A program made the translations under genes and the position numbers. From Methylobacterium dankookense (GTDB lineage: Bacteria; Pseudomonadota; Alphaproteobacteria; Rhizobiales; Beijerinckiaceae), in the NCBI RefSeq assembly GCF_902141855.1, contig NZ_CABFVH010000024.1, positions 1 through 64,000 on the forward strand: a DNA stretch of 64,000 nt, written 5' to 3'. Positions 5,074 through 49,985 of the stretch are shown in pieces; the first letter of the stretch is position 1; the number at the start of each line of letters is the position of its first letter. The notes below the pieces were generated by a model. The model searched no databases. It saw nothing but the letters and a program-made list of their open reading frames with translations, and was not told the DNA's origin.

Positions 5074-5526
5074 GTGACCCAACGCAAACGCCAACGCCTG
5101 CTCATGATCGCATCCTGCGGTGCCGTGCTGACGCTGGCGGTCGGCCTCATCCTCACGGCCTTGAGCGGCTCGGTCGTGTTTTTCCGCTCGCCGAGCGAGA
5201 TCGCCCTGCAGGGGGTCGGGCCAGGCGTGCGCCTCCGCCTCGGCGGCCTCGTGCAGGAGGGCTCGATCCGGCGCGGGCCCGATCAGACGGTCGACTTCAC
5301 CGTGACCGACACCAGTGCCTCGGTCCCGGTCCACTACAAGGGCCTGCTGCCCGACCTGTTCCGGGAGGGCCAGGGCGTGGTGGCGGAAGGGCGGTTGGAG
5401 CCCGGCGGCCTGTTCCGGGCCGACACGGTGCTGGCCAAGCACGACGAGGCCTACATGCCCCGCGAGGTCGCCGAGGCCCTCAAGGGCCAGGGCCACTGGC
5501 AGGGCGGCCGCCCCACGGCCAACTGA
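5074..5526 (+). CDS. ccmE: CcmE heme chaperone (orphan copy)
   Basis: A 150-residue cytochrome c maturation protein. It has a basic N-terminus, a transmembrane anchor at about residues 10-31, a periplasmic OB-fold, and the HDEAYMP heme-attachment motif at about residues 124-130, whose His binds heme covalently in CcmE. CcmE carries heme from CcmABCD to the CcmFH lyase. It is normally next to ccmF and ccmH; here it stands alone, which suggests a second copy for low-oxygen cytochrome maturation. The start is a GTG at 5074. A hairpin follows the stop directly. Confidence 0.92.
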
Positions 5527-9880: not shown

Positions 9881-9894
9881 TTGAGCCACATCAA
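9881..9894. promoter_or_regulatory. FNR/FixK/DNR-type box upstream of hemN
   Basis: TTGAGCCACATCAA, 85 bases before the hemN start. FNR or FixK control of hemN is well established in related bacteria. Confidence 0.7.
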
Positions 9895-9979: not shown

Positions 9980-11332
9980 ATGCGCGAGGATCTGAGGACG
10001 CTCTACGGCGATGAGCGCCTACCCCGCTACACCAGCTATCCCGCGAGCCCGCATTTCGGTCCGCAGGTGGATGCCGGCATCTACGCGGACTGGCTGGGCG
10101 CGCTCCCGGCAGGCACGACGGCGTCGCTCTACCTGCACGTCCCCTTCTGCCGCTCGATGTGTTGGTACTGCGGCTGCCACACCAGCATCACTCGGCACGA
10201 CGCGCCCATCGCCGACTACCTGTCGACGCTGCGAGCCGAGATCGGCATCGTCGCCCGCCAGCTCGACCGTTCGCAGCGGGTCCGTCACGTGCATTTCGGC
10301 GGCGGCACCCCCACCATCGTCGCGCCGGACGCCTTCCGCGACCTCCTCGGCCTGCTGCGCGACACCTTCCGCCTCGATCCGGACGCCGAGGTCGCGGTCG
10401 AGATCGACCCCCGTACTCTCACGCCCGAGATGACCCTCGCCCTTGGCAAGGCCGGGGTAACGCGGGCGAGCCTCGGGGTCCAGAGCTTCGACCCGGCGGT
10501 GCAGCAGGCGATCCGGCGTCGCCAGGGCTACGACGTCACCGAAGCCTCGGTCGCCGGGTTGCGGGCGGCCGGGGTCCGCGGGATCAACCTCGACCTGATC
10601 TACGGCCTGCCGCACCAGACGGTGGCCTCCTGCGTCGAGACCGTGCGGCAATGCCTGGGCCTGCGCCCCGACCGCCTCGCGGTGTTCGGCTACGCGCACG
10701 TGCCGAGCTTCAAGAAGCACCAGCGCCACATCGACGAGGCGACCATGCCCGATGGCGCCGCCCGCCAGGCACAGGCCGAGGCCATTGCCGGGGCGCTCGC
10801 GGAGGCCGGCTATGTCCGGATCGGCCTCGACCACTACGCCCTGCCAGCCGATCCCATGGCGGTCGCCAACGCGGCAGGCACGTTGCGCCGGAACTTCCAG
10901 GGCTACACCACCGATCCCGCCGAGGTGCTGATCGGCTTCGGCGCTTCCTCCATCGGGCGGTTGCCCCAGGGCTACGTGCAGAACGAACCGGCCCTACGCG
11001 CCTATGCCGAGCGCGTCGCGAGGGGCGGACTCGCCACCGTGAAGGGCTACGCCCTGACGCCGGACGACCGCCTCCGAGCCGACCTGATCGAGCGGATCAT
11101 GTGCGATTTCGCCGTCGATGTCGGGGCGGTTTGCCGCGCTCATGGCCGCAACCCGGACGCGATCCTCGCCGCCACCCCGCGCCTGGCCATCCTCGCGGGG
11201 CACGGCCTCGTCCGACGCGACGGTCGCGTCCTGAGCATCCCGGACGGCGCCAGGGCCTTCGTGCGCAACGTCGCCGCCGCCTTCGACGCCCATCTCGGGA
11301 CGTCCGCCGCGGTGCACAGCCGCGCCGCCTAG
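9980..11332 (+). CDS. hemN: Oxygen-independent coproporphyrinogen III oxidase
   Basis: A 450-residue radical SAM enzyme that converts coproporphyrinogen III to protoporphyrinogen IX without O2, allowing heme synthesis under anoxia. The cluster motif CRSMCWYCGC (Cys57, 61, 64 and 66) is intact. HFGGGTPTIVAPDAF and the C-terminal winged region confirm HemN rather than the shorter HemW. The ATG at 9980 follows GGGAAG. Its promoter carries an FNR-type box, so induction at low oxygen is expected. It supplies heme for the cytochromes and the nor and cyo enzymes encoded nearby. Confidence 0.95.
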   Translation: MREDLRTLYGDERLPRYTSYPASPHFGPQVDAGIYADWLGALPAGTTASLYLHVPFCRSMCWYCGCHTSITRHDAPIADYLSTLRAEIGIVARQLDRSQRVRHVHFGGGTPTIVAPDAFRDLLGLLRDTFRLDPDAEVAVEIDPRTLTPEMTLALGKAGVTRASLGVQSFDPAVQQAIRRRQGYDVTEASVAGLRAAGVRGINLDLIYGLPHQTVASCVETVRQCLGLRPDRLAVFGYAHVPSFKKHQRHIDEATMPDGAARQAQAEAIAGALAEAGYVRIGLDHYALPADPMAVANAAGTLRRNFQGYTTDPAEVLIGFGASSIGRLPQGYVQNEPALRAYAERVARGGLATVKGYALTPDDRLRADLIERIMCDFAVDVGAVCRAHGRNPDAILAATPRLAILAGHGLVRRDGRVLSIPDGARAFVRNVAAAFDAHLGTSAAVHSRAA

Positions 11333-11644: not shown

Positions 11645-13198
11645 ATGACGAAGCTTGAGGATCGACTCGGCTCGCAGCTCGGCGGTGACGATCCGTCCTC
11701 CGGCGAGGAGCTAAGGCTCACGCTCGAGGAGGCGGGCATCTGCAGCTGGGCGCTGGACATCCCGACCGGCCGCGCCACGGTCTCGCCCACCTGCGCCCAG
11801 CTCTTCGGCGTCCCGCCCGAGCGCCTGGCGAGCTTCGAGGCCACCCAGGCGCTCGTGCACGAGGACGACCGCGCGGCCCGGGCGGGAGCGATCCGGGGCG
11901 CTTTGGAGCGCGGCGGCAGCTACGAGGTCGATTACCGCGCGGTGCATCCCGACGGATCGCTCCGCTGGCTGCGCTCGCGCGGCCGGGTGCAGCTCGGCCC
12001 GGACGGCCGGCCGTGCCGGCACCGGGGCGTGATCTTCAGCATCCACGAGCAGCGGCAGGCCGACGAGGAGCTGCGCGCCCGCGAGGCGCATCTGCGCTCG
12101 ATCCTCGACACCGTACCCGACGCCATGGTGGTCATCGACGAGCAGGCCCGGATCAAGTCCTTCAGCGCCGCCGCCGTGCGCCAGTTCGGCTACGCGCCCG
12201 ACGAGGTGGAGGGCCGCAACGTCAGCCTGCTGATGCCCGAGCCCTACCGCACCCAGCACGACGCCTACATGGCCCGCTACCTCGCGACCGGGGAGCGGCG
12301 CATCATCGGCATCGGCCGCGTCGTGGTCGGCCAGCGCCGGGACGGCTCGACCTTCCCGATGGAGCTGTCGGTCGGCGAGATGCGCTCGGGCGGCGAGCGC
12401 TACTTCACGGGCTTCATCCGGGACCTGACCGAGCGCAACCAGACCGAGACGCGCCTGCAGGCGTTGCAGTCCGAGCTCGTGCACATGTCCCGCTTCACCG
12501 CGCTCGGCGAGATGGCCTCGACGCTCGCCCACGAGATCAACCAGCCGCTGACCGCGATCGCGAGCTACCTCAAGGGCTGTCGGCGCATCCTCGCGCGCAT
12601 GGAGGGCGCGGAGGTGGCGCGCCTCGCCGACGCAGTGAACCAGGCCGCCGAGCAGGCGCTGCGGGCGGGGCAGGTCATCCGGCACCTGCGCGAGTTCGTG
12701 GCGCGCGGCGAGAGCGAGCGGCACATCGAGGGTCTGCCCAAGCTGATCGAGGAGGCGAGCGCGCTCGCCCTCGTCGGCGCCAAGGAGAAGGGCGTGCGCG
12801 TGCGCTTCGACCTCGACCCGGACGCCCCCCTCGTGCTGGCGGACCGGATCCAGGTGCAGCAGGTGCTGCTCAACCTCATCCGCAACGCCATCGAGGCCAT
12901 GCAGGGCGCGCCGCGCCGCGAGCTCGTCGTCGGCACGCGCGCGCTGCCGGACGACGGGCTCGTGGAGGTCACCGTGGCCGATACCGGCAGCGGCATCGCG
13001 CCCGAGGTGGCCGCCCAGCTCTTCCAGCCCTTCGTGACCACGAAGGCGAACGGGATGGGGGTCGGCCTCTCGATCTGCCGCACCATCGTGGAGGCGCACG
13101 GCGGCAAGATCCTGGTCGAGCCCGGCCCCGCGGGCGGGACGACCTTTCGCTTCACCCTGCGCACCGTCGACCGAAAGGAGCTCGCACATGCCCAGTGA
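11645..13198 (+). CDS. fixL: Oxygen-sensing histidine kinase FixL
   Basis: A 517-residue soluble kinase: PAS-A (about 25-135), heme PAS-B (about 145-262), HisKA with AHEINQP (phospho-His about 296), and a HATPase domain to the end. In PAS-B, His205 in QHDAYMARY is the expected heme ligand; Arg211 and Arg225 (in [14 protein letters not shown]) fall at the same offsets (+6, +20) as Arg206 and Arg220 from His200 in Bradyrhizobium FixL. It should autophosphorylate when heme is deoxy and pass phosphate to FixJ. There are no transmembrane helices, as in the B. japonicum type. It overlaps fixJ by 11 bases. Confidence 0.95.
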
Positions 13199-13817
13199 CG
13201 CGCCCAGTGACGCGCCCGTGCACGTCGTCGACGACGACCTCGCGGTCCGCCAGGCGCTCGCCTTCCTGCTTGCCAGCGACGGGCTGACGGTCCGCGTGCA
13301 CGAATCCGCCAGCGCCTATCTGGCTGCCGTGGTCGATCCCGGCGGCTGCATCCTGACCGACGTGCGCATGCCCGAGCTCGATGGCATCGAGTTCCTGCGC
13401 CGTCTCCGCCAGCGGGGGCCGATGCCGCCCGTCATCGTCATGACGGGCCACGCGGACGTGCCGCTCGCCGTCGAGGCCATGCGGGCGGGCGCCGTCGACT
13501 TCATCGAGAAGCCGTTCGACGACGAGGTGCTGCTCGCCAGCGTCCGCTCGGCCCTGGCCCAGGCGGCGCGCAGCCTGAACCGCGCGGCCCACCAGAGCGC
13601 GGTGCGGGCGCGCCTTGCCACACTCTCCGAGCGTGAGCGCCAGGTGCTGGACGGGCTGGTCGCCGGCAAGGCCAACAAGGTCATCGGCCTCGACCTCGGC
13701 ATCAGCCCGCGGACCGTCGAGATCTACCGGGCCAACGTCATGGCGAAGCTGCAGGCGGGCAGCCTGTCCGAGCTGGTCAGGATGGCGCTCCTCGCAGGGG
13801 ATCCGCACGGCGGGTGA
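13188..13817 (+). CDS. fixJ: Response regulator FixJ
   Basis: A 209-residue regulator with a receiver domain (phospho-Asp58 in [11 protein letters not shown], Thr86 in VMTGHAD, Lys108 in EKPF) and a C-terminal LuxR-type HTH ([20 protein letters not shown]). Phosphorylated FixJ normally activates fixK. The start ATG lies inside the end of fixL. The first residues SDAPSDAP come from a 12-base tandem duplication that also contains the fixL stop codon. The likely target, fixK, is 12 kb away at 25982. Confidence 0.95.
13190..13216 (+). repeat. 12-bp tandem duplication at the fixL/fixJ junction
   Basis: The 12-base unit CCCAGTGACGCG occurs twice in direct tandem. It contains the fixL TGA in one frame and encodes SDAP in the fixJ frame, so the duplication lengthens FixJ by four residues without changing fixL after its stop. 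Confidence 0.7.
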
Positions 13818-18052: not shown

Positions 18053-18505
18053 ATGAGCGAACGATTCACCAAGGCCGCGGCCCGGAACATCTTCTACGGC
18101 GGTTCGGCGTTCTTCTTCGTGGCTTTCATCGCGCTGACCGCGCACAGCCACTACTACATCGTTCGCGCGAGCACGGACGCGGCCGGCCTGACCGACAGCG
18201 TGGCGCGGGGCAAGCACGTCTGGGAGCGCAACTCCTGCATCAATTGCCACTCCCTCCACGGCGAGGGCGCCTACTTCGCTCCGGAGCTGGGCAATGTCTG
18301 GGTCCGGTACGGCGGCCCCAAGGACCCCGAGGGCGCGCGCGCCGCGCTGATCGCCTGGATGCAGTCGCAGCCGAGCGGCGTCCCGGGACGCCGGCAGATG
18401 CCGAATTTCCACCTGAACGATCAGGACCTCAATGCCTTGGTCGACTTCCTGGAGTGGGCCAGCCGAACCAATAAGCAGGGCTGGCCGCCCAACGACGCCG
18501 GTTGA
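18053..18505 (+). CDS. norC: Nitric oxide reductase subunit C
   Basis: A 150-residue membrane-anchored monoheme cytochrome c. One N-terminal helix (about residues 14-34), the heme motif CINCH (about 62-66), and a distal methionine candidate in RRQMPNFHL. It passes electrons from periplasmic donors to NorB. The gene is followed by norB after 11 bases. The ribosome-binding site is weak (GGAG before TTGATCCGTA). Confidence 0.96.
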   Translation: MSERFTKAAARNIFYGGSAFFFVAFIALTAHSHYYIVRASTDAAGLTDSVARGKHVWERNSCINCHSLHGEGAYFAPELGNVWVRYGGPKDPEGARAALIAWMQSQPSGVPGRRQMPNFHLNDQDLNALVDFLEWASRTNKQGWPPNDAG

Positions 18506-18516
18506 GGAGACCCAAG

Positions 18517-19878
18517 ATGAAATACGCGACGCAGAAGGTCGCCTACTACTACTTCGCCGGCGCGATGATCCTGTTCGCGGTCCAGGTCACGATGGGGCTC
18601 CTCGCCGGCACGGTCTACGTGCTGCCGAACTTCCTGGCCGAGATACTGCCCTTCAACATCCTGCGCATGATGCACACGAACGCGCTCATCGTCTGGTTGC
18701 TGATGGGTTTCTTCGGGTGCGCCTACTACCTCGTTCCCGAGGAGGCCGAGAGGGACATCGAGAGCCCGTTGCTGGCCTACGTGCAGCTCGGCCTCCTCAT
18801 GTTCGCGGCGCTGGCGGCGGTGATCGGCTACGCCTTCGGCGTGCACGAGGGCCGCGAGTTCCTCGAACAACCCCTCTGGATCAAGATCGGCATCGTCGTC
18901 GTGGCGCTGATCTTCCTCTACAACGTCTCGATGACCGTCGCCAAAGGGCGCAAGACCGCGGTGACGAACGTGCTTCTGCTCGGGCTATGGGGCATCGCCG
19001 TCTTCTGGCTGTTCGCCTTCTACAACCCCGCGAATCTCTCACTCGACAAGATGTATTGGTGGTACGTCGTCCATCTCTGGGTGGAGGGCGTCTGGGAGCT
19101 GGTGATGGCCTCCGTCCTCGCCTTCCTGATGATCAAGATGACGGGCGTGGACCGAGAGGTCATCGAGAAGTGGCTCTATGCCATCGTCGGACTGGCGCTG
19201 TTCTCGGGTCTTCTCGGCACCGGCCACCATTATTACTGGATCGGCGCGCCAGGATATTGGCAGTGGATCGGGAGCATCTTCTCCACGTTCGAGATCGCGC
19301 CGTTCTTCGCCATGGTGATCTTCGCCTTCACGATGGTCTGGAAGGGGCGCCGCGACCACCCGAACAGGGCCGCCATGCTGTGGTCGCTCGGCTGCACCGT
19401 CGGCGCATTCTTCGGTGCCGGAGTCTGGGGCTTCATGCACACGCTGTCGTTCATCAACTATTACAGCCACGGCACGCAGGTCACGGCCGCGCACGGACAT
19501 CTCGCGTTCTTCGGCGCCTACGTGATGCTGAACCTGGCGATGATCACCTACGCCATGCCGTACCTGCGCAACCGTCTCCCGTACAACCAGGTGCTCAACA
19601 TGTGGAGCTTCTGGATCATGACCTCGGCCATGGCGTTCATGACCTTCGTGCTGACCTTCGCCGGCGTGGTGCAGGTCCACCTGCAGCGAGTTATGGGCAT
19701 GAGCTACATGGAGGTGCAGGAGCAGCTGAACCTGTTCTACTGGATGCGCCTCGGGACCGGGGTTTTCGTCGGGATCTCCGCGCTGCTGTACCTCTACTCG
19801 ATCTTCGGCCCGGCGCGCGAGGACAAGCCGGAACGACTCGTGGCGCCCCTGCGGCCGCTGCCGCGACCCGCCGAATAG
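18517..19878 (+). CDS. norB: Nitric oxide reductase subunit B
   Basis: A 453-residue, twelve-helix catalytic subunit that reduces 2 NO to N2O with heme b3-FeB. The length matches the cytochrome c-dependent cNor type, not the longer quinol qNor. The His-containing helices are visible: MMHTNALIVWLLMGFFGCAY, WWYVVHLWVEGVWEL, GTGHHYYWIG and AAHGHLAFFGAYVMLNL. The start at 18517 follows GAGGAG. With NorC it forms the functional reductase; NorQ and NorD assist its assembly. Confidence 0.97.
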   Translation: MKYATQKVAYYYFAGAMILFAVQVTMGLLAGTVYVLPNFLAEILPFNILRMMHTNALIVWLLMGFFGCAYYLVPEEAERDIESPLLAYVQLGLLMFAALAAVIGYAFGVHEGREFLEQPLWIKIGIVVVALIFLYNVSMTVAKGRKTAVTNVLLLGLWGIAVFWLFAFYNPANLSLDKMYWWYVVHLWVEGVWELVMASVLAFLMIKMTGVDREVIEKWLYAIVGLALFSGLLGTGHHYYWIGAPGYWQWIGSIFSTFEIAPFFAMVIFAFTMVWKGRRDHPNRAAMLWSLGCTVGAFFGAGVWGFMHTLSFINYYSHGTQVTAAHGHLAFFGAYVMLNLAMITYAMPYLRNRLPYNQVLNMWSFWIMTSAMAFMTFVLTFAGVVQVHLQRVMGMSYMEVQEQLNLFYWMRLGTGVFVGISALLYLYSIFGPAREDKPERLVAPLRPLPRPAE

Positions 19879-19920
19879 GCCAGACGGGAGCCGGCGCAGC
19901 CGCTCCCCGGAGAACAGACG

Positions 19921-20733
19921 ATGGCGCGACCTTCGATCCTGCCGGCGCCCGGCGCCGACGACCCGCCATTCTACCGGGAGACGGCCGGGGAATGCGAGCT
20001 GTTCGAACGGGCTTTCCGCAACCGGATGCCCCTGCTCATCAAGGGACCGACCGGCTGCGGGAAGACCCGTTTCGTCGCGCACATGGCGGCCCGGTTGGGG
20101 CGTCCGCTCTACACGGTGGCGTGTCACGACGACCTGACCGCCGCCGACCTCACCGGTCGCTACCTGCTCAAGGGGGGCGACACGGTTTGGGCCGACGGGC
20201 CCCTCACCCGCGCGGTGCGCGACGGTGCGATCTGCTACCTGGACGAGGTGGTGGAGGCGCGCAAGGACGTGACGGTGGTGCTGCATCCGGTCACCGACGA
20301 CCGGAGGACGCTGCCTCTGGAACGGACGGGCGAGATCCTGCACGCCCCGCCCGAGTTCATGCTCGTCGTGTCGTACAACCCTGGCTACCAGAACGTTCTC
20401 AAGAGCCTCAAGCCGTCGACGCGGCAGCGCTTCCTCGCGCTCGAATTCTCGTTCCCCCAGCCGGAGGTGGAGGCCGCCATCGTCGCCCGGGAGAGCGGCC
20501 TCGCGCAGGAGCGGTGCGCCGCGCTGGTACGGCTCGCGAACGCGCTCCGCGAACTCAAGGGGAAGGACCTCGACGAGGGGGCTTCCACCCGCCTCGTCAT
20601 CTACTGCGCCAGCCTCATCAAGGCCGGCATGAGGCCGGCCGATGCGGTCGTCGCCGCGCTGATCGAGCCGCTGACCGACGACCCGGACGTGAGGCAGGGC
20701 CTCCTGCGCGTGGCTGACATCGCGTTGGGCTGA
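19921..20733 (+). CDS. norQ: NorQ/CbbQ-type MoxR AAA+ ATPase
   Basis: A 270-residue MoxR-family ATPase. Walker A is GPTGCGKTR (about residues 41-49) and the Walker B region reads AICYLDEVVEARKDV; sensor motifs follow in VVSYNPGYQ and STRQRF. NorQ acts with the VWA protein NorD to activate nitric oxide reductase, probably by inserting the non-heme iron. It sits in the standard norCBQD order. Confidence 0.94.
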   Translation: MARPSILPAPGADDPPFYRETAGECELFERAFRNRMPLLIKGPTGCGKTRFVAHMAARLGRPLYTVACHDDLTAADLTGRYLLKGGDTVWADGPLTRAVRDGAICYLDEVVEARKDVTVVLHPVTDDRRTLPLERTGEILHAPPEFMLVVSYNPGYQNVLKSLKPSTRQRFLALEFSFPQPEVEAAIVARESGLAQERCAALVRLANALRELKGKDLDEGASTRLVIYCASLIKAGMRPADAVVAALIEPLTDDPDVRQGLLRVADIALG

Positions 20734-20736
20734 CCC

Positions 20737-22647
20737 ATGTCGCCGTTCGAGCCGGAGGAGAGCGTCGGGAAGCTGTGGCACCGGCTCGTCGGCGGCGCGT
20801 CAACCTACCCCCGCCACCCCGGGGCCACGGCGCGGCTGGACGACGTCCGGGGACGGCTCGGGGTCATGTTTCGCGCGCTCGGCGGGGACGGCGCGATCCG
20901 GATCGCGTCCGGCGCGTCCCTCGAATCGGGACACCGCCTGAGCCTCAGGCAGCGGGTGGGGCTCGGCCGCGAGAGGATCGACAGGGGGGCGCTCGACGAG
21001 AGCACGTTGCGTCTCCCGGCCGCCCTGGACGTCTTTCCCGAGCGCATCGACAACGAGGCCGCGTACGAGTGGCTGGCGGCTTGGTTCGCGCACGCGCGAA
21101 CGCCGGCCGGCGCCGACGACCCGCTGCAGAACGACGTCCTCCGGCTCCGCGCGGCCCTGGCGACGACGCGCGTCACGCTCGACCGCTGGCCGGGCCTGGG
21201 ACCGCTGCACGCGCGGTTGAGCGCGGCGTCCCTGAGGGTGCGACCGAGCAGAACGCTCCCACCATGCGAGGCCATCCTGGAGGCCGTCATCCGGTCGCTC
21301 CTCGGAGGCCCCGCCGCTCCGCCGACCGGCGACCTGCTGTCGGAGGCGATTCGCGGCGAGGGACCGGTTGCCGGGCTCGTCGCGCCGCGGGGCTACCAGA
21401 CCTATCTGCCGGTCCCGATCTGGGGCGACGTGCTCGGCGGGGGAGGGGGCCCGCACCGCGCGGACGCACCCGAGGAAGGCGGCGGCTCCGTTCCCGCCGA
21501 TCCAAGGCGCCGGCAAGCGGCACGGCGGTCCTCCGACCAGAGCGAGCGCGGCGACCCGCTGCTTCTCCACCGCTTCGAGACGATCTTCAGCATCTCGGAG
21601 ATGGTCAACGTCAACCGCGGCGTGGACGACGACGACGAGGCGGGCGCGCGCCAGGCGCTTGAGGACCTACCCGAGCTGACGCTGGGCTCCAACAAGAGGC
21701 GGGCGGCCACGCGGCTCAAGCTAGACCTCGACCTCACCCCCTCCGCGGCCGAGGCTGAGCCCGTCGTTGCCGAGCTGACCTACCCCGAGTGGGACTGGAA
21801 GCGGCAGGCGTACCGGAAGGACTACTGCCGCGTGCTGGCGAGCCCGGCCCCCGAGGAGGGGGAGGATTGGTCGCCCGATGCGGAGATGCAGCAACGCATC
21901 CGGCAGGTGCGCCGCCAGTTCGAGGCCTTGCGGCCGCGGAGGCAGACCTTTCACGGGGAGCCCGACGGAGACGATCTCGACCTGTCCGCCCTGGTGCGCG
22001 ACCGGGCCGACCGTCGCGCCGGGGGCGCCGGAACGGAGCGCGTGTTCGAAAGCTCCCGAGCTGCCGCCCGCGACCTGTCGCTGGCCGTGCTGATGGACGT
22101 CTCGCTCTCGACCGACGCCTGGATACAGGACCGCCGGGTCCTCGACGTCGAGAAGAGCGCGCTGCTCGCGCTCAGCCATGGGCTGACGGCGTGCGGCGAC
22201 GAGCACGCCGTGTTCACCTTCACCTCGCGACGGCGCGACTGGGTCAGCGTGGCAGCCGTGAAGGAATTCGAGGAAGAGCTGAGCGCCCGGGTCGTCCGAC
22301 GCATCCAGGCGCTGAAGCCGGGCCAATACACCCGGATCGGCGCCGCCGTCCGGCACGTGGCGGCGAGGCTCGACGCGCGCCCGCACCGCAAACGCCTCCT
22401 CCTCATCCTGACAGACGGCAAGCCGAACGACATCGACCACTACGAAGGGCGCTACGGCATCGAGGACACGCGCATGGCCATCCGGGAGGCGCGCGAGGCC
22501 GGCATCCGGGTTTTCGGCGTGACCGTCGACGAGCAGGCCCACGACTACTTCCCCTACATCTTCGGGCGAGGCGCCTACGCGATCTTCCCGAACATCTCCC
22601 GGATGCCCGTCGCCCTGCCGGCCATCTACCGCCAGATCACAAGCTAA
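20737..22647 (+). CDS. norD: NorD, VWA-domain activator of NO reductase
   Basis: A 636-residue protein with a variable N-terminal half and a C-terminal von Willebrand A domain. The metal-ion site motif is DVSLSTD, followed by KRLLLILTDGKPNDIDHYEGRYG and FGVTVDEQA. It pairs with NorQ as a chelatase-like activation machine for NorB. It starts three bases after norQ, so the two are co-translated. The middle region is acidic and Arg-rich with low-complexity segments. Confidence 0.94.
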   Translation: MSPFEPEESVGKLWHRLVGGASTYPRHPGATARLDDVRGRLGVMFRALGGDGAIRIASGASLESGHRLSLRQRVGLGRERIDRGALDESTLRLPAALDVFPERIDNEAAYEWLAAWFAHARTPAGADDPLQNDVLRLRAALATTRVTLDRWPGLGPLHARLSAASLRVRPSRTLPPCEAILEAVIRSLLGGPAAPPTGDLLSEAIRGEGPVAGLVAPRGYQTYLPVPIWGDVLGGGGGPHRADAPEEGGGSVPADPRRRQAARRSSDQSERGDPLLLHRFETIFSISEMVNVNRGVDDDDEAGARQALEDLPELTLGSNKRRAATRLKLDLDLTPSAAEAEPVVAELTYPEWDWKRQAYRKDYCRVLASPAPEEGEDWSPDAEMQQRIRQVRRQFEALRPRRQTFHGEPDGDDLDLSALVRDRADRRAGGAGTERVFESSRAAARDLSLAVLMDVSLSTDAWIQDRRVLDVEKSALLALSHGLTACGDEHAVFTFTSRRRDWVSVAAVKEFEEELSARVVRRIQALKPGQYTRIGAAVRHVAARLDARPHRKRLLLILTDGKPNDIDHYEGRYGIEDTRMAIREAREAGIRVFGVTVDEQAHDYFPYIFGRGAYAIFPNISRMPVALPAIYRQITS

Positions 22648-23966: not shown

Positions 23967-24743
23967 TCAGGCAAGGCCCTCGCCGGGCTGCCAGGCGTCG
24001 GGCGGCACGAGGCCCGGCGCCACGTAGGCGAAGTACAGGGCGTCGAGCTGCGTCCAGAGCACGTTGCACTTGAAGGTCAGCGCATCCATGGCGGCGCGCT
24101 GCAGCTCCGGCGTGGTGGCGTGATGCTTGACGTAGTCGAGGGCGAAGTCCGCGTCGCGCGGCGCCTGGGTGAGGCGCTTGTCGAAATAGGCGAGCGTCTC
24201 CTTGGTGATGAAGTCGTAGTTCTTCAGCATCCCGGCGACGCGCTCGGAGATGATGGTCGGCGAGAACATCTCGGTGAGCGAGGAGGCGATCGCCTCCAGC
24301 AGGCTCCGCTCCGAGACGAAATGCACGTAGGCGTCCACCGAGAAGCGGGTCGCCGAGAGGATGCCCTTCGTCGAGAGCACGTAGTCGCGCGCGAAGCCGA
24401 CGCCCTCGGCGAGCTTCAGCCAGCGCTCGATGCCGCCGTCGCCCTCGTGGTCGCCGTCGTGATCGACGATGCGCTGGCGCCAGATCCGGCGCAAGCTCGC
24501 GTCCGGCAGGCGGGCGAGCACCGCCGCGTCCTTCACGGGGATCATCGCCTGGTAGTAGTAGCGGTTGAGCGCCCAGGCCCGGACCTGATCCTTGCTCAGC
24601 TTGCCGTCGTGCAGCAGGCGGTGGAACGGGTGCAGGTTGTGATAGCGCCGCGCGCCGATGTCGCGCAGCGCCGCCTCCAGCTCCTCGTGGCTGAGGAGGC
24701 GCTGGGTCGCGTCGGCGCCGGGAGTGGGGAAGGAGGCGTTCAT
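23967..24743 (-). CDS. pqqC: Pyrroloquinoline-quinone synthase PqqC (orphan)
   Basis: A 258-residue all-helical oxidase that catalyses the last step of PQQ synthesis, ring closure and oxidation of AHQQ using molecular oxygen. Family features: HPFHRLLHDGKLSKDQVRAW, NRYYYQAMIPVKDAAVLAR, RIVDHDGDHEGDGGIERWL and ISERVAGMLKNYDFITKETL. It is free-standing, whereas Methylobacterium extorquens carries a PqqC/D fusion, and none of pqqA, B, D or E is nearby. The promoter holds a near-perfect FNR-type box 57 bases upstream, odd for an O2-consuming enzyme. Confidence 0.94.
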   Translation of the reverse strand: MNASFPTPGADATQRLLSHEELEAALRDIGARRYHNLHPFHRLLHDGKLSKDQVRAWALNRYYYQAMIPVKDAAVLARLPDASLRRIWRQRIVDHDGDHEGDGGIERWLKLAEGVGFARDYVLSTKGILSATRFSVDAYVHFVSERSLLEAIASSLTEMFSPTIISERVAGMLKNYDFITKETLAYFDKRLTQAPRDADFALDYVKHHATTPELQRAAMDALTFKCNVLWTQLDALYFAYVAPGLVPPDAWQPGEGLA

Positions 24744-24800
24744 GGCGTTTCCGTGCGTCGTTCGGGCGCCGGAGTGGAGGGGAGCTGCGGCCGCCCTTCC

Positions 24801-24814
24801 TTGATTCAGGTCAA
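24801..24814. promoter_or_regulatory. FNR/FixK/DNR-type box upstream of pqqC
   Basis: TTGATTCAGGTCAA, extended outward by CC and GG to an 18-base near-palindrome. It lies 57 bases before pqqC and 123 bases before the divergent CBS gene. Confidence 0.72.
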
Positions 24815-24937
24815 GGGGAACGGGGCTCGGCGCCGTACCTGCCGGGTACGCCGCGGATCAGGCGATCCGTGGCGGACCACCGTAGGGCGACCTGCCCCGG
24901 CGCCGGCCCGCCGGCGGCCCACGACCGGGAGGCCCGC

Positions 24938-25309
24938 ATGACATGCCCAACCGTCGAGGATCGCTTGGCCGGCCGCCCGCTTGTCGGCGTGACCGGCTGC
25001 TTCACGGTCGCGGCCGCCTGCCATCGGATGCGCGAACACGACGTGGGAGCGCTCGCAGTCCTCGATGACCGGCGTCTCGTCGGCATCCTGAGCGATCGCG
25101 ACCCCGCGGTTCGCGTGATCGCCGGCCACTGCGACCCGCTTCTGACCCCCGTCCGAGAGGTGATGACGCGCGAGCCGACAACCCTTCCAGCGCACGCCGC
25201 CATCCCCGGTGCGCTCCGGGCCATGTCGGCCGGCGGCTTCCGCCACTCGCCGGTCACGCGGGGCGAAGGCGGTCATCGGGATGCTGTCCCTGCGCGACAT
25301 CCCGCATGA
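24938..25309 (+). pseudogene. CBS-domain protein with a frameshift
   Basis: The reading frame begins as a CBS-pair protein (GVTGCFTVAAACHRMREHDVG; AVLDDRRLVGILSDRD; VREVMTREPTTLPAHAAI). Near 25258 the sense moves to another frame, which reads AKAVIGMLSLRDIPHEG, the normal end of a second CBS motif. As written, the protein ends with 15 unrelated residues. So the gene is either frameshifted or carries a sequence error. In the shifted frame there is no stop before the next gene. CBS pairs usually bind adenine nucleotides. Confidence 0.6.
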
Positions 25310-25416
25310 GGGCGATCAGCCGAGCGGGCGCACCCGGGAGGTGCCGGTCCTTGCCCTGGGTCGAGCGTCGCCTCCAGTGGCGACGAGCGGCCGCCCGCCT
25401 CGAAGCCTGCCCTCGG

Positions 25417-25430
25417 TTGAGGCAGATCAA
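25417..25430. promoter_or_regulatory. FNR/FixK/DNR-type box upstream of a lone receiver
   Basis: TTGAGGCAGATCAA, 54 bases before the response regulator start at 25485. It lies in the decayed tail of the CBS gene. Confidence 0.62.
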
Positions 25431-25484
25431 GGCGCCGCTCCGGCACCGGGCCTAGGCCGAGGTGAGAAGGGATCGGGCGCCGCC

Positions 25485-25862
25485 ATGCCGAAACACACGG
25501 GACCGGTGCTCGTCGTCGACGACGACGAGGCCGTCCGCCACTCACTGAAATTCGTCCTGGAGCTCGAAGGCCTCGACGTACGCCTGTACCGGGACGGCGC
25601 CGCCTTGCTCCGCGACGCCGCCCTGCCGCGCACGGGCTGCCTCGTGGTGGACTATTGGATGCCCGGCATGGACGGCTTCGAGCTCGTCGGACGCCTGCGC
25701 GACCGAAACGTTGACCTCCCGGCCATCCTGATCACCGGCCGACCTTCCGGTGACCTGCAGCGCCGCGCCGCCCATGCGGGCTTCCGCCTTGTCGTCGAGA
25801 AACCGTTCGAGGACGGATCCCTGCTGGACGGCATCCACGACGCCCTCGCGGCGGCCAGCTGA
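25485..25862 (+). CDS. Single-domain response regulator (FixJ-like receiver)
   Basis: A 125-residue stand-alone receiver: acidic pair DDDEA near the N-terminus, phospho-Asp in VVDYWMPGMDG, Thr in LITGRPSGD, and Lys in VEKPFEDG. It has no output domain, so it should act by protein contact or as a phosphate sink. Its sequence is closest in style to FixJ receivers, and it lies just upstream of fixK and behind an FNR-type box. A feedback role on FixL, like that of FixT-type inhibitors, is possible but is inference. Confidence 0.85.
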   Translation: MPKHTGPVLVVDDDEAVRHSLKFVLELEGLDVRLYRDGAALLRDAALPRTGCLVVDYWMPGMDGFELVGRLRDRNVDLPAILITGRPSGDLQRRAAHAGFRLVVEKPFEDGSLLDGIHDALAAAS

Positions 25863-25880
25863 GGGACGGGCGGCACCTCC

Positions 25881-25894
25881 GTAGAATTCCCTAG
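25881..25894 (+). promoter_or_regulatory. Possible FixJ-binding element upstream of fixK
   Basis: GTAGAATTCCCTAG, about 88 bases before the fixK start, resembles the GTAGTTTCCC-type elements bound by FixJ in rhizobial fixK promoters. The match is partial and recalled, not computed. Confidence 0.3.
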
Positions 25895-25981
25895 GGGGCG
25901 CCCCTTAAGAGAAGTCCCGGAATTTCGCCCCATCCGTGCGGGGCGTAGCCATGGAGCCACGTTCCGCACCCGGAGGCTTCC

Positions 25982-26671
25982 ATGCAGACCGCCCTCGCCA
26001 CCGCCGGCCTCGTCCCCGTCTTCGCGACGGCCCTGCCGAACCGCGCCGTCGCGCAGGCCGCGATCCCGCGGGCCGAGGCACGCGGCGAGGTGCGCCGGAC
26101 CTACGTGGCCGACGCGGAGATCTTCGCCGAGGGCGACCGGGCGACCACCTTCTACAAGGTCGTCTCGGGCGTCGTCCGCACCTACAAGCTCCTCTCCGAC
26201 GGACGCCGGCAGATCGATGCCTTCCACCTGCCGGGCGACATCTTCGGCGTGGAGGCCGGCGAGGAGCATCGCTTCAACGCGGAGGCCGTGACCGCGACAC
26301 GGCTGGCTGTCCATCGCCGCGAGCCCCGGGCCCTTGCGGGAGACGACGGCCTGCTGGCCAGGGACGTCGTGGCCGCGATGATGCGAAGCCTGGAGCGGGC
26401 GCAGGACCACATGCTGCTGCTCGGCCGCAAGTCGGCCAAGGAGCGCATCGCGAGCTTCCTGCTCGGCCTGTCGCAGCGGATGGCGTGCCGCGGCACGGCG
26501 ATGGAGTTGCCGATGTCGCGCACCGACATCGCCGATCATCTCGGCCTGACGGTCGAGAGCGTCTCGCGGGCGGTGACCCAGTTGGAGCGGGACGGCCTGA
26601 TCGAGCTGCCGCCGAACCGCCGCGCCGTGATCCTGCGGGACGTGGCGGCCCTGGACGACCTCGCCGAGTGA
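25982..26671 (+). CDS. fixK: FixK-type Crp/Fnr regulator
   Basis: A 229-residue regulator with the FixK-typical sensor stretch FYKVVSGVVRTYKLLSDGRRQ and DAFHLPGDIFGVE, a dimer helix, and the HTH MSRTDIADHLGLTVESVSRAV. It lacks an N-terminal Cys cluster, as FixK proteins do. FixK is normally switched on by FixJ-phosphate and binds TTGAT-N4-ATCAA boxes, which recur through this window. It probably links FixLJ to hemN, pqqC, pdxH and others. Confidence 0.9.
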   Translation: MQTALATAGLVPVFATALPNRAVAQAAIPRAEARGEVRRTYVADAEIFAEGDRATTFYKVVSGVVRTYKLLSDGRRQIDAFHLPGDIFGVEAGEEHRFNAEAVTATRLAVHRREPRALAGDDGLLARDVVAAMMRSLERAQDHMLLLGRKSAKERIASFLLGLSQRMACRGTAMELPMSRTDIADHLGLTVESVSRAVTQLERDGLIELPPNRRAVILRDVAALDDLAE

Positions 26672-26688
26672 ACCGTGCGGCGCGAGCC

Positions 26689-26964
26689 TTAGTCCGGCGC
26701 CTTCGGGAGGATGCCGGCCCCGATGCAGGCGGCCTGGCCGCGTAGAAGCAGGGCCTTGATCCTGTGCTCGCGCACCATCCAGCGCAGGGGGCGCAGGGCC
26801 GGCAGCGACCCAGTGGGATCGAGCCGCGATGCCTTGCCGGCGAGGTTCCCGGCCAGCGCGTCGTGGGTCCGCGCACGGGCCACCAGATCCTCCATTCGTG
26901 CCGCGTCGGGTGCTTCCATCCGGCGGCGCGGCCTCATCGGCGACGCGAAGTGCGGGGTGCCCAT
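26689..26964 (-). CDS. 91-residue hypothetical protein downstream of pdxH
   Basis: The ATG at 26964 follows the pdxH stop by seven bases on the same strand, so the two are likely co-transcribed. The product is basic and soluble, with a central helix (MEDLVARARTHDALAGNL) and a C-terminal half ending in RIKALLLRGQAACIGAGILP. No family was recognised. It converges on fixK, leaving 17 bases between the stop codons. Confidence 0.55.
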   Translation of the reverse strand: MGTPHFASPMRPRRRMEAPDAARMEDLVARARTHDALAGNLAGKASRLDPTGSLPALRPLRWMVREHRIKALLLRGQAACIGAGILPKAPD

Positions 26965-26971
26965 CGTATCC

Positions 26972-27634
26972 TCAGGGGTACAGGCGCGTGCGGGTCCAGA
27001 GGGCGCCGTCGCTCGCGAAACGGACGCGGTCGTGCAGGCGGTAGGCCCGGTCCTGCCAGAACTCGAACGCGACCGGGATGATGCGGAAGCCCCGCCAATG
27101 GGCCGGCCGCGGCACCGGCTTCCCGTCCGAGCGGCTAGCCACCGCGTCGACCTCGCGAAGCAGGGTCGCCCGGTCGGCCAGGGGCTGCGACTGCCGGCTG
27201 GCGACCGCCCCGACGCGGCTCTCGCGGGGACGGCTGGCGAAGTAGGCGTCGGATTCCTCCGGGGAGACCGGCGCGACCGCGCCCCTGGCGCGGACCTGAC
27301 GACGCAGGCTCTTCCAATGCAGGACGATGGCGGCCTGGGCGTTCTGCCCGAGTTCCGCTCCCTTGGCGGAGCGGTCGTTCGTGAAGAACACGAAGCCGCG
27401 TTCGTCGTAGGATTTAAGCAGCATGATCCGCACGTCCGGCATGCCGTCGGCCCCCGTCGTGGCGAGCGCCATGGCATGCGGGTCGTTCGGCTCGGTGCGC
27501 TTGGCTTCGCTCATCCACTCCCGGAACAGTTCCCAGGGATCCGCTCGACACGTGAAGTCGTCCGCGCCGTCCCGAGCGCTCCCGTGGCCTTCGCCGTCTG
27601 CGACCGTAGCTGCGAGTATCTCCGTCATCACCAT
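26972..27634 (-). CDS. pdxH: Pyridoxamine 5'-phosphate oxidase
   Basis: A 220-residue FMN enzyme that oxidises pyridoxine or pyridoxamine 5'-phosphate to pyridoxal 5'-phosphate using O2. Landmarks: MALATTGADGMPDVRIMLLKSYDERGFVFFTN, the FMN-binding KGAELGQNAQAAIVLHWKSL, ESDAYFASRPRESRVGAVAS, and the C-terminal FEFWQDRAYRLHDRVRF. ATG codons at 27634 and 27628 are both possible starts. An FNR-type box lies 64 bases upstream. Like pqqC, it is an O2-requiring cofactor enzyme that appears set for low-oxygen induction. Confidence 0.94.
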   Translation of the reverse strand: MVMTEILAATVADGEGHGSARDGADDFTCRADPWELFREWMSEAKRTEPNDPHAMALATTGADGMPDVRIMLLKSYDERGFVFFTNDRSAKGAELGQNAQAAIVLHWKSLRRQVRARGAVAPVSPEESDAYFASRPRESRVGAVASRQSQPLADRATLLREVDAVASRSDGKPVPRPAHWRGFRIIPVAFEFWQDRAYRLHDRVRFASDGALWTRTRLYP

Positions 27635-27698
27635 TCCCCGTGGCGGGACGTCCCGCCTCTGGTTCGGGTGCTGATGGACCGCCTCGACGGCACCGGCC

Positions 27699-27712
27699 TT
27701 GATGCAGGTCAT
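27699..27712. promoter_or_regulatory. FNR/FixK/DNR-type box upstream of pdxH
   Basis: TTGATGCAGGTCAT, one mismatch at the last base of the inverted repeat. It lies 64 bases before the pdxH start. Confidence 0.62.
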
Positions 27713-42101: not shown

Positions 42102-42842
42102 TCAGCTCGCGGCCAAGCGCTCAAGCTTGGCCGGGTCGAGCAGTCGCGCGCCGCCGGGCACGAGCAGGATAGCGTGCGCCCGGTCGAGCCGCGTCAGCAT
42201 GCGGCTGACCGTTTCCATGGTCAGGCCGAGGTAATCCGCCATGTCCTGGCGCCCCATCGGCAGCTCGACCGTGATGGAGCTGTGACCGGCCCGGGCGAAG
42301 CGGTCGCGCAGCGAGAGCAGGAAGGCGGCGACCTTCTCCTCGGCCGTGCGGCGCCCGAGCAGCAGCATCTGGTCCTGGGCCAGGCTCAGTTCGTAGCCGG
42401 CCCGCTCGTGGAGGCTCCTGAGCAGGTGCGGCTTGGCCTCGACCATCGCCGCGAAGTCGTGGCGCGCGAAGCGGCAGGTCTTCACCGGCCCGAGCGCCTC
42501 GGCCGAGACCGAGTAACGCTCCTGCAGGGCGAGCCCGAGGAAATCCCCCGGCAGGGCGAAGCCCATGACCTGGCGCCGGCCGTCGGGCAGCAGGCGGGTC
42601 AGGCGCAGCGCCCCTTCGATGACGTTGAAGACGGAGCTCGCTGTCTCGCCCTGCCCGAACAGGGCCTGCCCCTTGTCTAGGGAGAGGTGCTGGCTCAGCG
42701 CCTCAAGCTGCTCCAGCTCGGGCAGGGCCAGCACGGAGCAGACGCTGATCAGCCTGACCTTGCAGTCGACGCAGCCGTTCTCCGAGCGCCTGTGGTGGCA
42801 GACGTGCGCAGCCCTGTCGCACAAGCCCGTATCGACCAGCAT
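42102..42842 (-). CDS. fnrN: FnrN-type Fe-S Crp/Fnr regulator
   Basis: A 246-residue anaerobic regulator. Cys24, Cys27 and Cys35 (CVDCKVRLISVC, the C-x2-C-x7-C spacing of FnrN) plus Cys123 in VKTCRFARHDF can bind an O2-labile [4Fe-4S] cluster. The HTH is MGRQDMADYLGLTMETVSRML, matching recognition of TTGAT half-sites. An FNR-type box 86 bases upstream indicates autoregulation, as known for rhizobial fnrN. It lies just downstream of nosX on the same strand. Confidence 0.93.
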   Translation of the reverse strand: MLVDTGLCDRAAHVCHHRRSENGCVDCKVRLISVCSVLALPELEQLEALSQHLSLDKGQALFGQGETASSVFNVIEGALRLTRLLPDGRRQVMGFALPGDFLGLALQERYSVSAEALGPVKTCRFARHDFAAMVEAKPHLLRSLHERAGYELSLAQDQMLLLGRRTAEEKVAAFLLSLRDRFARAGHSSITVELPMGRQDMADYLGLTMETVSRMLTRLDRAHAILLVPGGARLLDPAKLERLAAS

Positions 42843-45721: not shown

Positions 45722-46635
45722 GGCGCGGTCCCCTGCGAGCGGAGGAAGTGGGCGTAGAGCTGGTCCAGGGTCGGCGGCACCACCTCGATGTCCTCGACCG
45801 CCGTCCCGGCCGCCATCACGCCGCGCAGGATGTCCATCTTCCGCCCCGGCGCGGCCTCGATCTCGACGACGCGCCCGTCGACCCGTCGACACGGGCAGTC
45901 GGTCCAGAGGCGGTCGGCTAGATCGTGCACCCCCGTCTCCGCCGTGAGGCGGATGCGGGTGGGCAGCCGCGCGATGCGGCGGAGGGCGTCGAGCGTGCCG
46001 TCGGCCGCCATGACGCCCCGGTTCATGATGACGACGCGGCCGGCACGCTCCTCCAGCTCGGTCAGGGCGTGCGACGAGAGCAGCACGGTCGTGCCGCGTC
46101 CGCGAAGCTCCTCAACGATCTCGTAGAAGACCTGCCGGAGGGCTGGGTCGAGCCCCGTCGTGGGCTCGTCGAGGAGCAGGATGCGTGGCTCCCCGAGCAG
46201 CGCCTGCGCGAGGCCCAGGCGCTGGCGCATGCCCTTCGAGTAGGTGCCGACCCGCCGGTCCGCCGCGGGGCCGAGCCCGACGCGGTCGAGCAGCGGGGCG
46301 ACCGCGGTCCGGCCCTCCCGCTTCAGGCGGGCGTAGAAGGCCAGGGTCTCCCGGCCCGTGAGGGCGGCGTTGAACGCCACGTTCTCCGGGAGGTATCCGA
46401 GGCGGCGCCGCGCCGCGAACTCGCCGGCGGCCGGATCCTCCCCCAGCACCCAGACGCTTCCGGCGGTCGGGCGAATCAATCCGAGCATGAGCTTCATGAG
46501 CGTGGATTTGCCGGCGCCGTTGTGCCCGACCAGGGCGACGGTCTCGCCCTCGGCCAGGACGAACGACACGCGGCGGACGGCCTCGACCTTGCCGAAGCGC
46601 TTCACGACGTCGCGGATCTCGATGGTCGCAGTCAT
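45718..46635 (-). CDS. nosF: NosF, ABC ATPase of the NosDFY complex
   Basis: A 305-residue ATPase: Walker A GHNGAGKSTL, signature TYSKGMRQRLGLAQ, Walker B ILLLDEPTTGLDP and switch His in LLSSHAL. It powers NosDFY for copper-centre maturation of NosZ. The ATG at 46635 overlaps the nosD stop codon; the longer in-frame opening to 47079 overlaps nosD and is rejected. Confidence 0.94.
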   Translation of the reverse strand: MTATIEIRDVVKRFGKVEAVRRVSFVLAEGETVALVGHNGAGKSTLMKLMLGLIRPTAGSVWVLGEDPAAGEFAARRRLGYLPENVAFNAALTGRETLAFYARLKREGRTAVAPLLDRVGLGPAADRRVGTYSKGMRQRLGLAQALLGEPRILLLDEPTTGLDPALRQVFYEIVEELRGRGTTVLLSSHALTELEERAGRVVIMNRGVMAADGTLDALRRIARLPTRIRLTAETGVHDLADRLWTDCPCRRVDGRVVEIEAAPGRKMDILRGVMAAGTAVEDIEVVPPTLDQLYAHFLRSQGTAP

Positions 46636-48020
46636 CGGCGGCTTCCTCCGCACGCCTTGGGCCGGGGCGGCGGACTCATGAGCGGATGGCTGTCGACGAC
46701 CCCGCCGGGCAGCAGGGCGGGGAACTGCGCCTGCGCCCAGCGGATCACCTGCACGGCGGGCGAGTTCGCGAGCACCTTGGCTTGGGGAGCGGTCCACAGG
46801 ACCTTGTCCATCAGGTCGTTCGGCCGGTATGCCCCGTCGCCCAAGCCGTCCCCGTCCAGGTCGAAGGCCGGGTTGTCGCTCCAATAGTTCCCGCGTCCGT
46901 CCTTGGACCAGTCGACGTAGCGGGTGCTGACGTACTTCACCTGGTTCCGGTTGCGCACGAAGGCGTTGCCGGACACCTCGTTGCGCTCCGAGCCGGCGGT
47001 GAAGTGAATGCCGATCTCGCAGCCCTCGAACCAGTTGCCGCGGAAGCGGTTCTGGTTGGCGTTGTAGATGAACACGCACTTGGTGGGACCCGGCCGGAGG
47101 CCGGCGGTCGAGGCCGGCGCGGCGTCGCCCGGCACGGCGTGGTCACGCTCACCCCCGCCGCGCGTGCCGGCCCCGGCCCAGCGCCCCGCCGGCTGCAGCC
47201 GGCCCAGCACCGCGTTTCCGGCGACCTCGGAGGCGTTGGCGTAATTGAACAGGAAGCCGTGGTCGCGGTCGCCGTCGGACACGTTGCCGACGACCTTCAG
47301 CCGGTGCGAGAACATGAGGGCGTAGCCGACGGCGTTGCCCACCGAAACGTTGTCCCGGACCTCGCTGTCGTCGGTGTACATGTAGTGCACCGCGAAGCGC
47401 AGGTCGCGGAAGCGGTTGCCGCTGAACACGTTGCGCCGGCTAGAGATCACGAAGATGCCGTCGCGGCCGTAGGAAACGTCGTTGTCGAGGACTTTGGCCC
47501 CGGTCGCGTTCCAGACCGAGACGCCGTTCCCTGCCTCGTTGATGCGGCCCTCCCGGACGCCGACGATGATGTTGCGGCGGGCCACGGCCCGCTCGGCGCC
47601 GTGCAGGTAGATGCCGTAGAGGTTCCCCTCGATCCGGTTGTCCTCGACGACGGCACCCCGCGCGGTCCTCTCCACGAAGATCCCGGAATCCATGCGCTCA
47701 AGGTCGGAGCCTGAGCCGCGGACCGTCAGGCGGCGGACGACCGCGTCCGCCGCCGTGACCGTGACGACGCTGCCGTGGCCGGGGCCGACCACGACCGCAC
47801 CCGGCTCGCCCTCGACGACGAGCCGCCGCCCGACGCGGATCGCCCCGCGGTGCTCCCCGCCACGCAGGACGACGGTGTCCCCGTCGGAGGCCCCGTCGAT
47901 GGCCGCCTGGAGAGCGGCCCCGGGCGCGACGTCGATGCGCGCGGCCCGGGCGGGGCCGCCGAGGCTGGCGGCGACGACCGCCGCCGACCAGGCGAGCAGG
48001 AGGGGGCGGCCGGCGCGCAT
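46632..48020 (-). CDS. nosD: NosD, periplasmic copper-maturation protein
   Basis: A 462-residue exported right-handed beta-helix protein. The signal peptide ends near ARA (about residue 26), followed by repeated carbohydrate-binding-like strands such as GIFVERTARGAVVEDNRIEG and YVDWSKDGRGNYWSDNPAFD. NosD bridges NosFY and NosL/NosZ during CuZ assembly. An insertion of about 40 residues rich in Gly, Ala, Pro and Arg (after GNAVLGRLQPAGR, about 270-312) interrupts the repeats. The stop overlaps nosF. Confidence 0.93.
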   Translation of the reverse strand: MRAGRPLLLAWSAAVVAASLGGPARAARIDVAPGAALQAAIDGASDGDTVVLRGGEHRGAIRVGRRLVVEGEPGAVVVGPGHGSVVTVTAADAVVRRLTVRGSGSDLERMDSGIFVERTARGAVVEDNRIEGNLYGIYLHGAERAVARRNIIVGVREGRINEAGNGVSVWNATGAKVLDNDVSYGRDGIFVISSRRNVFSGNRFRDLRFAVHYMYTDDSEVRDNVSVGNAVGYALMFSHRLKVVGNVSDGDRDHGFLFNYANASEVAGNAVLGRLQPAGRWAGAGTRGGGERDHAVPGDAAPASTAGLRPGPTKCVFIYNANQNRFRGNWFEGCEIGIHFTAGSERNEVSGNAFVRNRNQVKYVSTRYVDWSKDGRGNYWSDNPAFDLDGDGLGDGAYRPNDLMDKVLWTAPQAKVLANSPAVQVIRWAQAQFPALLPGGVVDSHPLMSPPPRPKACGGSRR

Positions 48021-48022
48021 GC

Positions 48023-49963: not shown

Positions 49964-49985
49964 GCAGATCTCCTGTTCTTGCTCG

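Follow-up and report, generated by a model that had tools for sequence, protein, structure and literature searches.

The DNA analysed here (the window) is a stretch of 64,000 nucleotides from Methylobacterium dankookense, positions 1 to 64,000 of contig NZ_CABFVH010000024.1, in a genome of 6.15 Mb (G000; the other G, L and f codes denote the genomes, loci and families compared). It carries extra copies of two cofactor genes, called pqqC2 and pdxH2 below, which lie among genes of respiration and are preceded by boxes of the FNR/FixK type.

The pqqC2 gene (23967..24743, minus strand) encodes a stand-alone protein without the fused PqqD domain. Its product scored 428.9 bits against TIGR02111 (cut-off 240), covering profile positions 1-238 of 239, and its residues 1-257 (of 258) could be aligned to PDB 5VRC, a bifunctional PqqC/D protein that we take to be that of Methylorubrum extorquens. 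By these matches the product belongs to the PqqC family and is a predicted pyrroloquinoline quinone (PQQ) synthase, which would use O2 to convert AHQQ to PQQ as the final reaction of the pathway. The other pqqC of the genome is a fused pqqC/D gene (G000:C41:36829-37599) whose protein is 95% identical to PqqC2, and pqqC2 stops at the point where the fused copy continues into PqqD. The open reading frames flanking the fused gene presumably encode PqqB and PqqE.

The pdxH2 gene (26972..27634, minus strand) encodes a second pyridoxamine 5'-phosphate oxidase, with 242.5 bits against TIGR00558 (cut-off 180); the PhzG model gave 171.1 bits, under its cut-off of 270. The reading frame is readable to 27712, and because the longest frame begins inside the upstream box, the start was set at 27634, not 27712. 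The other pdxH of the genome (G000:C18:22913-23503) is ~65% identical to PdxH2.

The core of the box was taken as TTGA-N6-TCAA; a full core match is called exact, and a looser pattern allowed up to two mismatches. The box before pqqC2, TTGATTCAGGTCAA (24801..24814), has the exact core 57 bases from the ATG, with its centre ~64 bases before it. The box before pdxH2, TTGATGCAGGTCAT (27699..27712), is degenerate with one core mismatch and is 64 bases upstream of the set start. Exact boxes numbered seven in the window, against a mean of 0.12 (maximum 1) in 60 Markov-1 simulations, and the looser pattern gave 20 matches against 3.9 expected. The sole exact box in the 20 kb stretch around the fused pqqC/D gene lies more than 6 kb from its pqq genes.

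A first-pass annotation of this DNA had placed FNR-type boxes 57-64 bases upstream of PqqC and PdxH, which is correct with an exact core for the former and one mismatch for the latter. It had also put both genes in a respiration region away from their pathway genes, and they are indeed embedded among fixLJ, fixK, hemN, nor and nos genes, apart from their usual neighbours. The second copies of pqqC(D) and pdxH that it proposed to look for both exist (the C41 and C18 genes above), so those of the window are not the only ones. The similar boxes that it named for HemN and CcmE are exact. That of hemN, which encodes an O2-independent coproporphyrinogen III oxidase (9980..11332, plus strand; TIGR00538, 398.1 bits, cut-off 325), is at 9881-9894, 85 bases upstream, and that of the CcmE reading frame (5074-5526) is 203 bases upstream of the start of the longest frame. 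The genome has another CcmE copy too, at G000:C8:71134-71421, and four genes for PQQ-dependent dehydrogenases are above the TIGR03075 cut-off.

Two regulators are candidates for the boxes. The first (25982..26671, plus strand) likely acts on them; because its best match, NF050806, scores below the cut-off (211.1 vs 300 bits), we name it only as FixK/FNR family. The second is an FnrL/FNR-type regulator with a Crp-type helix-turn-helix (42102..42842, minus strand; NF045989, 158.4 bits, below the cut-off of 300). The O2-sensing two-component pair fixL-fixJ is at 11645..13817 (plus strand), where FixJ matched NF006900 with 315.7 bits (cut-off 255) and FixL matched NF041777 with 661.9 bits, below the cut-off of 850. 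A nitric oxide (NO) reductase cluster with a COX1 domain and AAA and VWA proteins (18053..22647, plus strand), whose genes we take to be norCBQD, stands between fixJ and pqqC2. The region also has cyo genes and the nitrous oxide (N2O) reductase genes nosD and nosZ (46632..50002, minus strand; TIGR04247 463 bits and TIGR04244 1127 bits, both above cut-off). A CBS-domain protein (24938..25309, plus strand; PF00571, 49.5 bits) is divergent from pqqC2 and has a common intergenic region with it. A stand-alone receiver-domain protein (25485..25862, plus strand; PF00072, 77.4 bits) adjoins fixK, and an exact box (25417..25430) is found 54 bases before it.

Second pqqC copies in Methylobacterium

We found pqqC in all 111 genomes of the genus searched, and a second stand-alone copy in six of them. 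It is complete in G000, G012 and G100, and in G097, G038 and G110 it is in pieces ending at contig ends; G078, with two overlapping pqqC pieces, was left out of the six. Contig breaks within pqqC in G097, G038 and G110 (L042, L043, L044, L046, L209, L210) are presumably due to near-identical copies, and second copies may be undercounted in draft genomes. In all six genomes pqqC2 adjoins fixJ, the receiver-fixK genes or both; pqqC2 and fixJ of the window are separated by several genes, the nor-type cluster included. A fixK-like regulator was found in every pqqC2 locus whose fixK side is readable; G110 has fixLJ beside pqqC2 and no fixK match at E <= 1e-60.

The box of the genus, TTGAYCTGAATCAA, begins 69-72 bases before the ATG in all five readable promoters (that of G110 is cut off). 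Between these promoters the box itself is 95.7% identical, and identity is 32%, 36% and 31% in three surrounding blocks of 20 to 21 bases. By this comparison, an FNR/FixK-type box is kept at activator distance before pqqC2 among relatives. At the canonical loci of the genus an exact box was found within 300 bases in 7 of 29, and all seven are inside pqqB.

The DNA identity of the two pqqC copies within one genome was 99.6% in G097, 98.4% in G038, 95.9% in G110, 94.7% in G012, 91.1% in G000 and 90.4% in G100, with the split genomes compared over the parts present (at most 167 codons in G110 and G038). G097 stands out against the wider canonical set, with its own copies 99.6% alike and the next-best gene at 95.3%. 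In a DNA tree of 35 rows, which left out G038, G110, G078 and three loci as repeats, a single clade of the stand-alone (orphan) copies of Methylobacterium was rejected (approximately unbiased test, p 8e-10). The orphan of G012 and the canonical gene of G046 are 93.6% alike and group with the canonical gene of G012 in an unresolved threesome (99/95). Thus the orphan copies, as read from the trees, track the gene of their own lineage though locus and box are common to them. Gene conversion would be the simplest reading of this likeness, strong in G097 and otherwise tentative.

Protein identity between the PqqC copies of Methylobacterium is 93-100%, and in G097, where both sequences had to be joined from contigs, the two proteins read identically. 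The ratio of nonsynonymous to synonymous rates (dN/dS) between the copies was 0.06-0.12 in three genome pairs. Over the PqqC alignment, 202 positions were invariant in 38 rows (three rows repeat a gene already included), and no residue separated orphan from canonical PqqC over four Methylobacterium orphans.

Extra pqqC copies across the order

A pqqC search (E <= 1e-40) was positive in 139 of 397 genomes of the order Hyphomicrobiales, and a search of family f2 was positive in 76 of 103. We examined all 37 multi-copy genomes outside Methylobacterium from both searches and, as controls, 15 of 48 single-copy f2 genomes, which gave 92 copies in 88 loci. The chance rate of an exact box is ~0.4% per 300 bases. 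An exact box within 300 bases upstream of pqqC was present for 24 of the 32 copies without an adjacent pqqB, vs 6 of the 60 with pqqB (Fisher p 4e-10, kinship ignored), and these six lie inside matched genes and drop out when such boxes are excluded. With the tandem f28 genes and the C-D-E cluster copy L233 set aside, 24 of 27 stand-alone copies were boxed. No boxed pqqC was found in the 15 single-copy f2 controls, and the region upstream of pqqC had no box in any of the 14 single-copy genomes of f35. In a phylum-wide sample (70 of 398 genomes with pqqC), the only two-copy genome outside the order, G714, had no box before either pqqC.

Whole operons showed boxes as well. Eight pqqB-containing operons had a box within 300 bases of pqqB; among nine genomes with two pqqB-containing copies, one copy was boxed in seven, none in G517, and the second was unreadable in G512. 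Two primary operons had a box 531 and 534 bases before pqqB, past the 300-base limit. At least one boxed copy or operon was found in 30 of the 33 genomes with dispersed pqqC copies (27 of f2, 1 of f16 and 2 of f35).

In a protein tree of 105 rows, the boxed orphans of f1, f2, f16 and f35 group with the canonical copies of their own family, and the starred branches force at least 11 label changes, where the labels are rough (boxed second operons were counted as canonical) and long branches were warned (L233, L292, L232 and others). Since this grouping holds in four families, the tree suggests that boxed extra pqqC copies arose more than once. The trees are not most simply explained by a single ancestor of all orphans, though gene conversion can mask older duplications.

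The surroundings of some extra copies are of respiratory type. The extra pqqC of G200 stands in divergent orientation to ccoNO and ccoG, which score above cut-off, and has hemN and a FixK/FNR-type gene nearby; the locus of G322 has hemN, fixK and cyo matches. The locus of G267 has a PQQ-dehydrogenase-like gene (TIGR03075, 371.7 bits, below the cut-off of 480). An extra pqqE is beside the boxed extra pqqC in L225, L229, L231, L252, L271, L273 and L277, and therefore the radical-SAM step may be doubled too. Another arrangement is the pqqB-C-C-D-E operon with two clearly different adjacent pqqC genes (L242, L243, L244 and L245 of G180, G216, G317 and G336); these tandem genes fall in different parts of the PqqC tree and have no exact box within 300 bases.

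Proposed role of pqqC2 and its alternatives

PQQ-dependent methanol dehydrogenase is central to many methylotrophs. We consider it likely that pqqC2 is a dispersed second copy under an FNR/FixK-type activator, raised at low O2 to sustain PQQ by dose. The proposal builds on the second copies, their boxes, the conservation and recurrence of these boxes and the near-identity of the proteins. When O2 falls, FixLJ-FixK (or FnrL) would bind the box and the amount of PqqC would go up; judged by FNR promoters in general, a box centred ~64 bases before the ATG would be well placed for class II activation of a transcription start near -22. PqqC needs O2 and H2O2 in four oxidative steps (PMC12423496), therefore its rate per molecule should drop at low O2 and extra enzyme would help, more PqqC offsetting the slower O2-limited turnover. 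If PQQ is limiting, methanol and alcohol dehydrogenases would thus stay supplied with it during respiration with high-affinity oxidases, NO or N2O. What is gained would be dose and timing, with the protein staying near the housekeeping copy, perhaps by gene conversion, and the promoters staying separate. Because the two Methylobacterium PqqC proteins are alike, the benefit is probably enzyme dose and not a different isoform.

For the order, we lean slightly towards the wider reading that Hyphomicrobiales repeatedly put FNR/FixK boxes before an extra pqqC (alone, with pqqE, or within a complete second operon), which would let PQQ dehydrogenases feed denitrification and high-affinity oxidases at low O2, and that gene conversion in some Methylobacterium would keep the enzymes alike with only the expression different. 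The pqqC part is a solid comparative finding, and the physiological step is what we infer from it. The low-O2 control that the first-pass annotation had proposed for both genes is well supported by comparison for pqqC, through the conserved box in the genus and its recurrence in other families, and is supported for pdxH only within a small Methylobacterium clade, with a degenerate box in the window.

Several observations weigh against this proposal. Of the 30 positive genomes, 27 belong to the single family f2, and among 11 tree-independent pairs the box went with the orphan in six, never the opposite way, with no difference in five (median p ~0.03). Three of the 33 dispersed-copy genomes have no boxed copy (G223, G375 and G517), where in G375 the extra pqqC follows hemN and two exact boxes are just upstream of hemN; also, the four f28 genomes with tandem pqqC in one operon have no exact box. 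A match to hemN, FNR, fixK or cyo was near only 7 of the 27 stand-alone extra copies in the stretch examined, and the genes scanned next to pqqC in L279 and L227 have no link to respiration. In Methylobacterium, fixK matches (E <= 1e-60) were found in 22 of 111 genomes at 26 loci, and pqqC2 in only five of these 22, plus G110; therefore most fixK loci are without pqqC2. Homogenisation of the copies is clear in G097 only: the G012 copies are 94.7% alike, yet 93.6-94.6% like a gene of a neighbour species, and the closest relatives of the G000 and G100 orphans are canonical genes of other species or each other.

The box of the window sits in a divergent intergenic region, 123 bases (box end to start) from the CBS gene, and might serve that gene instead. 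In general, the boxes could belong to a divergent neighbour (the CBS gene or a terminal oxidase) beside which pqqC2 merely landed, so that its regulation would be incidental. This agrees with the divergent layout of the window and with L221, L222 and L257, which have two boxes beside pqqC and an oxidase-type gene on the far side of the intergenic region. However, the spacing is fixed to pqqC2 in five genomes with diverged flanks, and the box stays in place (-69 and -71) in G100 and G038, though the CBS match starts ~1.3 kb from pqqC2 in the former and none was found in the stretch of the latter. Boxed extra copies are also found in four families. We regard this explanation as unlikely, though the best placed of the alternatives.

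Alternatively, PqqC2 could have specialised as an isoenzyme that has a higher affinity for O2 or uses a different oxidant, making PQQ with traces of O2 or none. Such an enzyme would be expected to have the control and neighbourhood seen here, and the copies outside Methylobacterium are more diverged. However, none of the four Methylobacterium orphans shows a residue specific to pqqC2, the 202 invariant positions span both kinds of copy and the G097 proteins read identically, so we rejected pqqC2 as a different catalyst for this genus and give the isoenzyme little chance. An O2-affinity difference between the two copies, as far as sequences tell, is unlikely. That pqqC2 is simply a spare or transient duplicate with no low-O2 role would fit its patchy distribution (six of 111 genomes) and the G000 and G100 orphans, which do not track their own canonical copy, but it is equally improbable, since the box is conserved while the flanks are not, no single-copy control is boxed and the canonical boxes of the genus are all inside pqqB.

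In the FixLJ-FixK and FNR regulons of alphaproteobacteria, hemN as well as genes of terminal oxidases and denitrification are preceded by TTGA-N6-TCAA boxes, and pqqC as a target differs from these known regulons. We found no report of a second pqqC under FNR or FixK, nor of pqqC together with FixK or with a "second copy", in a non-exhaustive literature search mostly outside subscription journals. The first-pass annotation had called the cofactor-maintenance response undescribed, which is so for pqqC as far as this search goes, but the general idea is known in cyanobacteria (PMC4500134). There the ChlAII, HO2 and DesF isoforms of O2-using enzymes are induced with HemN at low O2, and the chlAII-ho2-hemN(-desF) cluster resembles the present case in that O2-using biosynthetic enzymes are duplicated; pqqC2 would share with it an induction at low O2, together with hemN, that sustains cofactors (PMC4500134). 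Unlike pqqC2 with its FNR/FixK-type box, the cyanobacterial cluster has ChlR as activator and makes other products (PMC4500134).

The same review asks whether low-O2 isoforms add amount or affinity; DesF and DesC are ~48% similar, and the ChlA and HO pairs are said to resemble that pair in this (PMC4500134), whereas identity between the PqqC copies of Methylobacterium is 93-100%. The Methylobacterium pair points to amount over affinity, and is a natural case of a putative low-O2 copy that hardly differs as a protein from its aerobic counterpart. If the dose proposal is true, it would answer this question for PqqC.

Klebsiella and Pseudomonas aeruginosa transcribe pqq genes anaerobically but make no PQQ (PMC12423496, citing others), and a 2024 study of N2O-respiring methanotrophs holds that the O2 need of PQQ synthesis limits PQQ enzymes in strict anoxia (PMC11102522). 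Hyphomicrobium denitrificans, an alphaproteobacterial methylotroph, has a second pqqA, pqqD and pqqE in its denitrification cluster (PMC12423496). The portion of that article at hand names no second pqqC and speculates on an O2-free last step by PuuD-, SerC- and PyrD-like proteins (PMC12423496), whereas here the O2-using pqqC itself is doubled. The present finding, of one gene and one box in many genomes, bears on the PQQ supply of methylotrophs that denitrify or grow microaerobically. A further suggestion is that a model based on pqqABCDE operons alone may overlook the putative low-O2 copy, at which three short-read or draft assemblies were broken.

pdxH2 and neighbouring genes

The pdxH2 gene was found in 5 of the 111 Methylobacterium genomes and forms one clade (99/94) of 5 of the 40 tree rows, separate from pdxH1; the extra pdxH near fixK in G004 falls outside it. 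An exact box begins 78-92 bases before the set start in G100, G097 and G041, and the box has one mismatch in the window and in G075. Elsewhere, 2 of 79 pdxH loci scanned (80 named) had an exact box within 400 bases, and both are pdxH2 of the Methylobacterium group; no pdxH match was beside the extra copies among the 88 order-wide pqqC loci. Because boxed pdxH was confined to this group among the loci scanned and no pdxH was beside the extra pqqC copies of those 88 loci, the joint story of pqqC and pdxH is local. The pdxH half of the observation is thus real but local, and pdxH2 probably belongs to the same low-O2 response as a further gene of narrower distribution.

In gonococci, pdxH was up 4.3- and 5.5-fold in two replicates without O2, and a histone-deacetylase-like gene was induced too (PMC3032703). 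The gonococcal pdxH is listed under MtrR and, in the part of the paper available, is not described as a second copy (PMC3032703); pdxH2 here neighbours a histone-deacetylase-like gene, which adjoins it at 27955-28947 of the window and also in G100 and G041. In G075 (L208) pdxH2 and fixK each have an in-frame stop, while fixL, fixJ and hemN match full length, as if this branch of the locus were decaying.

The M. dankookense genome has a second fixLJ-receiver-fixK locus (G000:C1:376001-396000, L205), whose FixK is ~62-65% identical to that of the window and at which no match to pqqC2 or pdxH2 was seen. The box-preceded receiver-domain gene and the CBS-domain gene adjoin fixK in many fixK loci of the genus, and their proteins perhaps give feedback on FixL.

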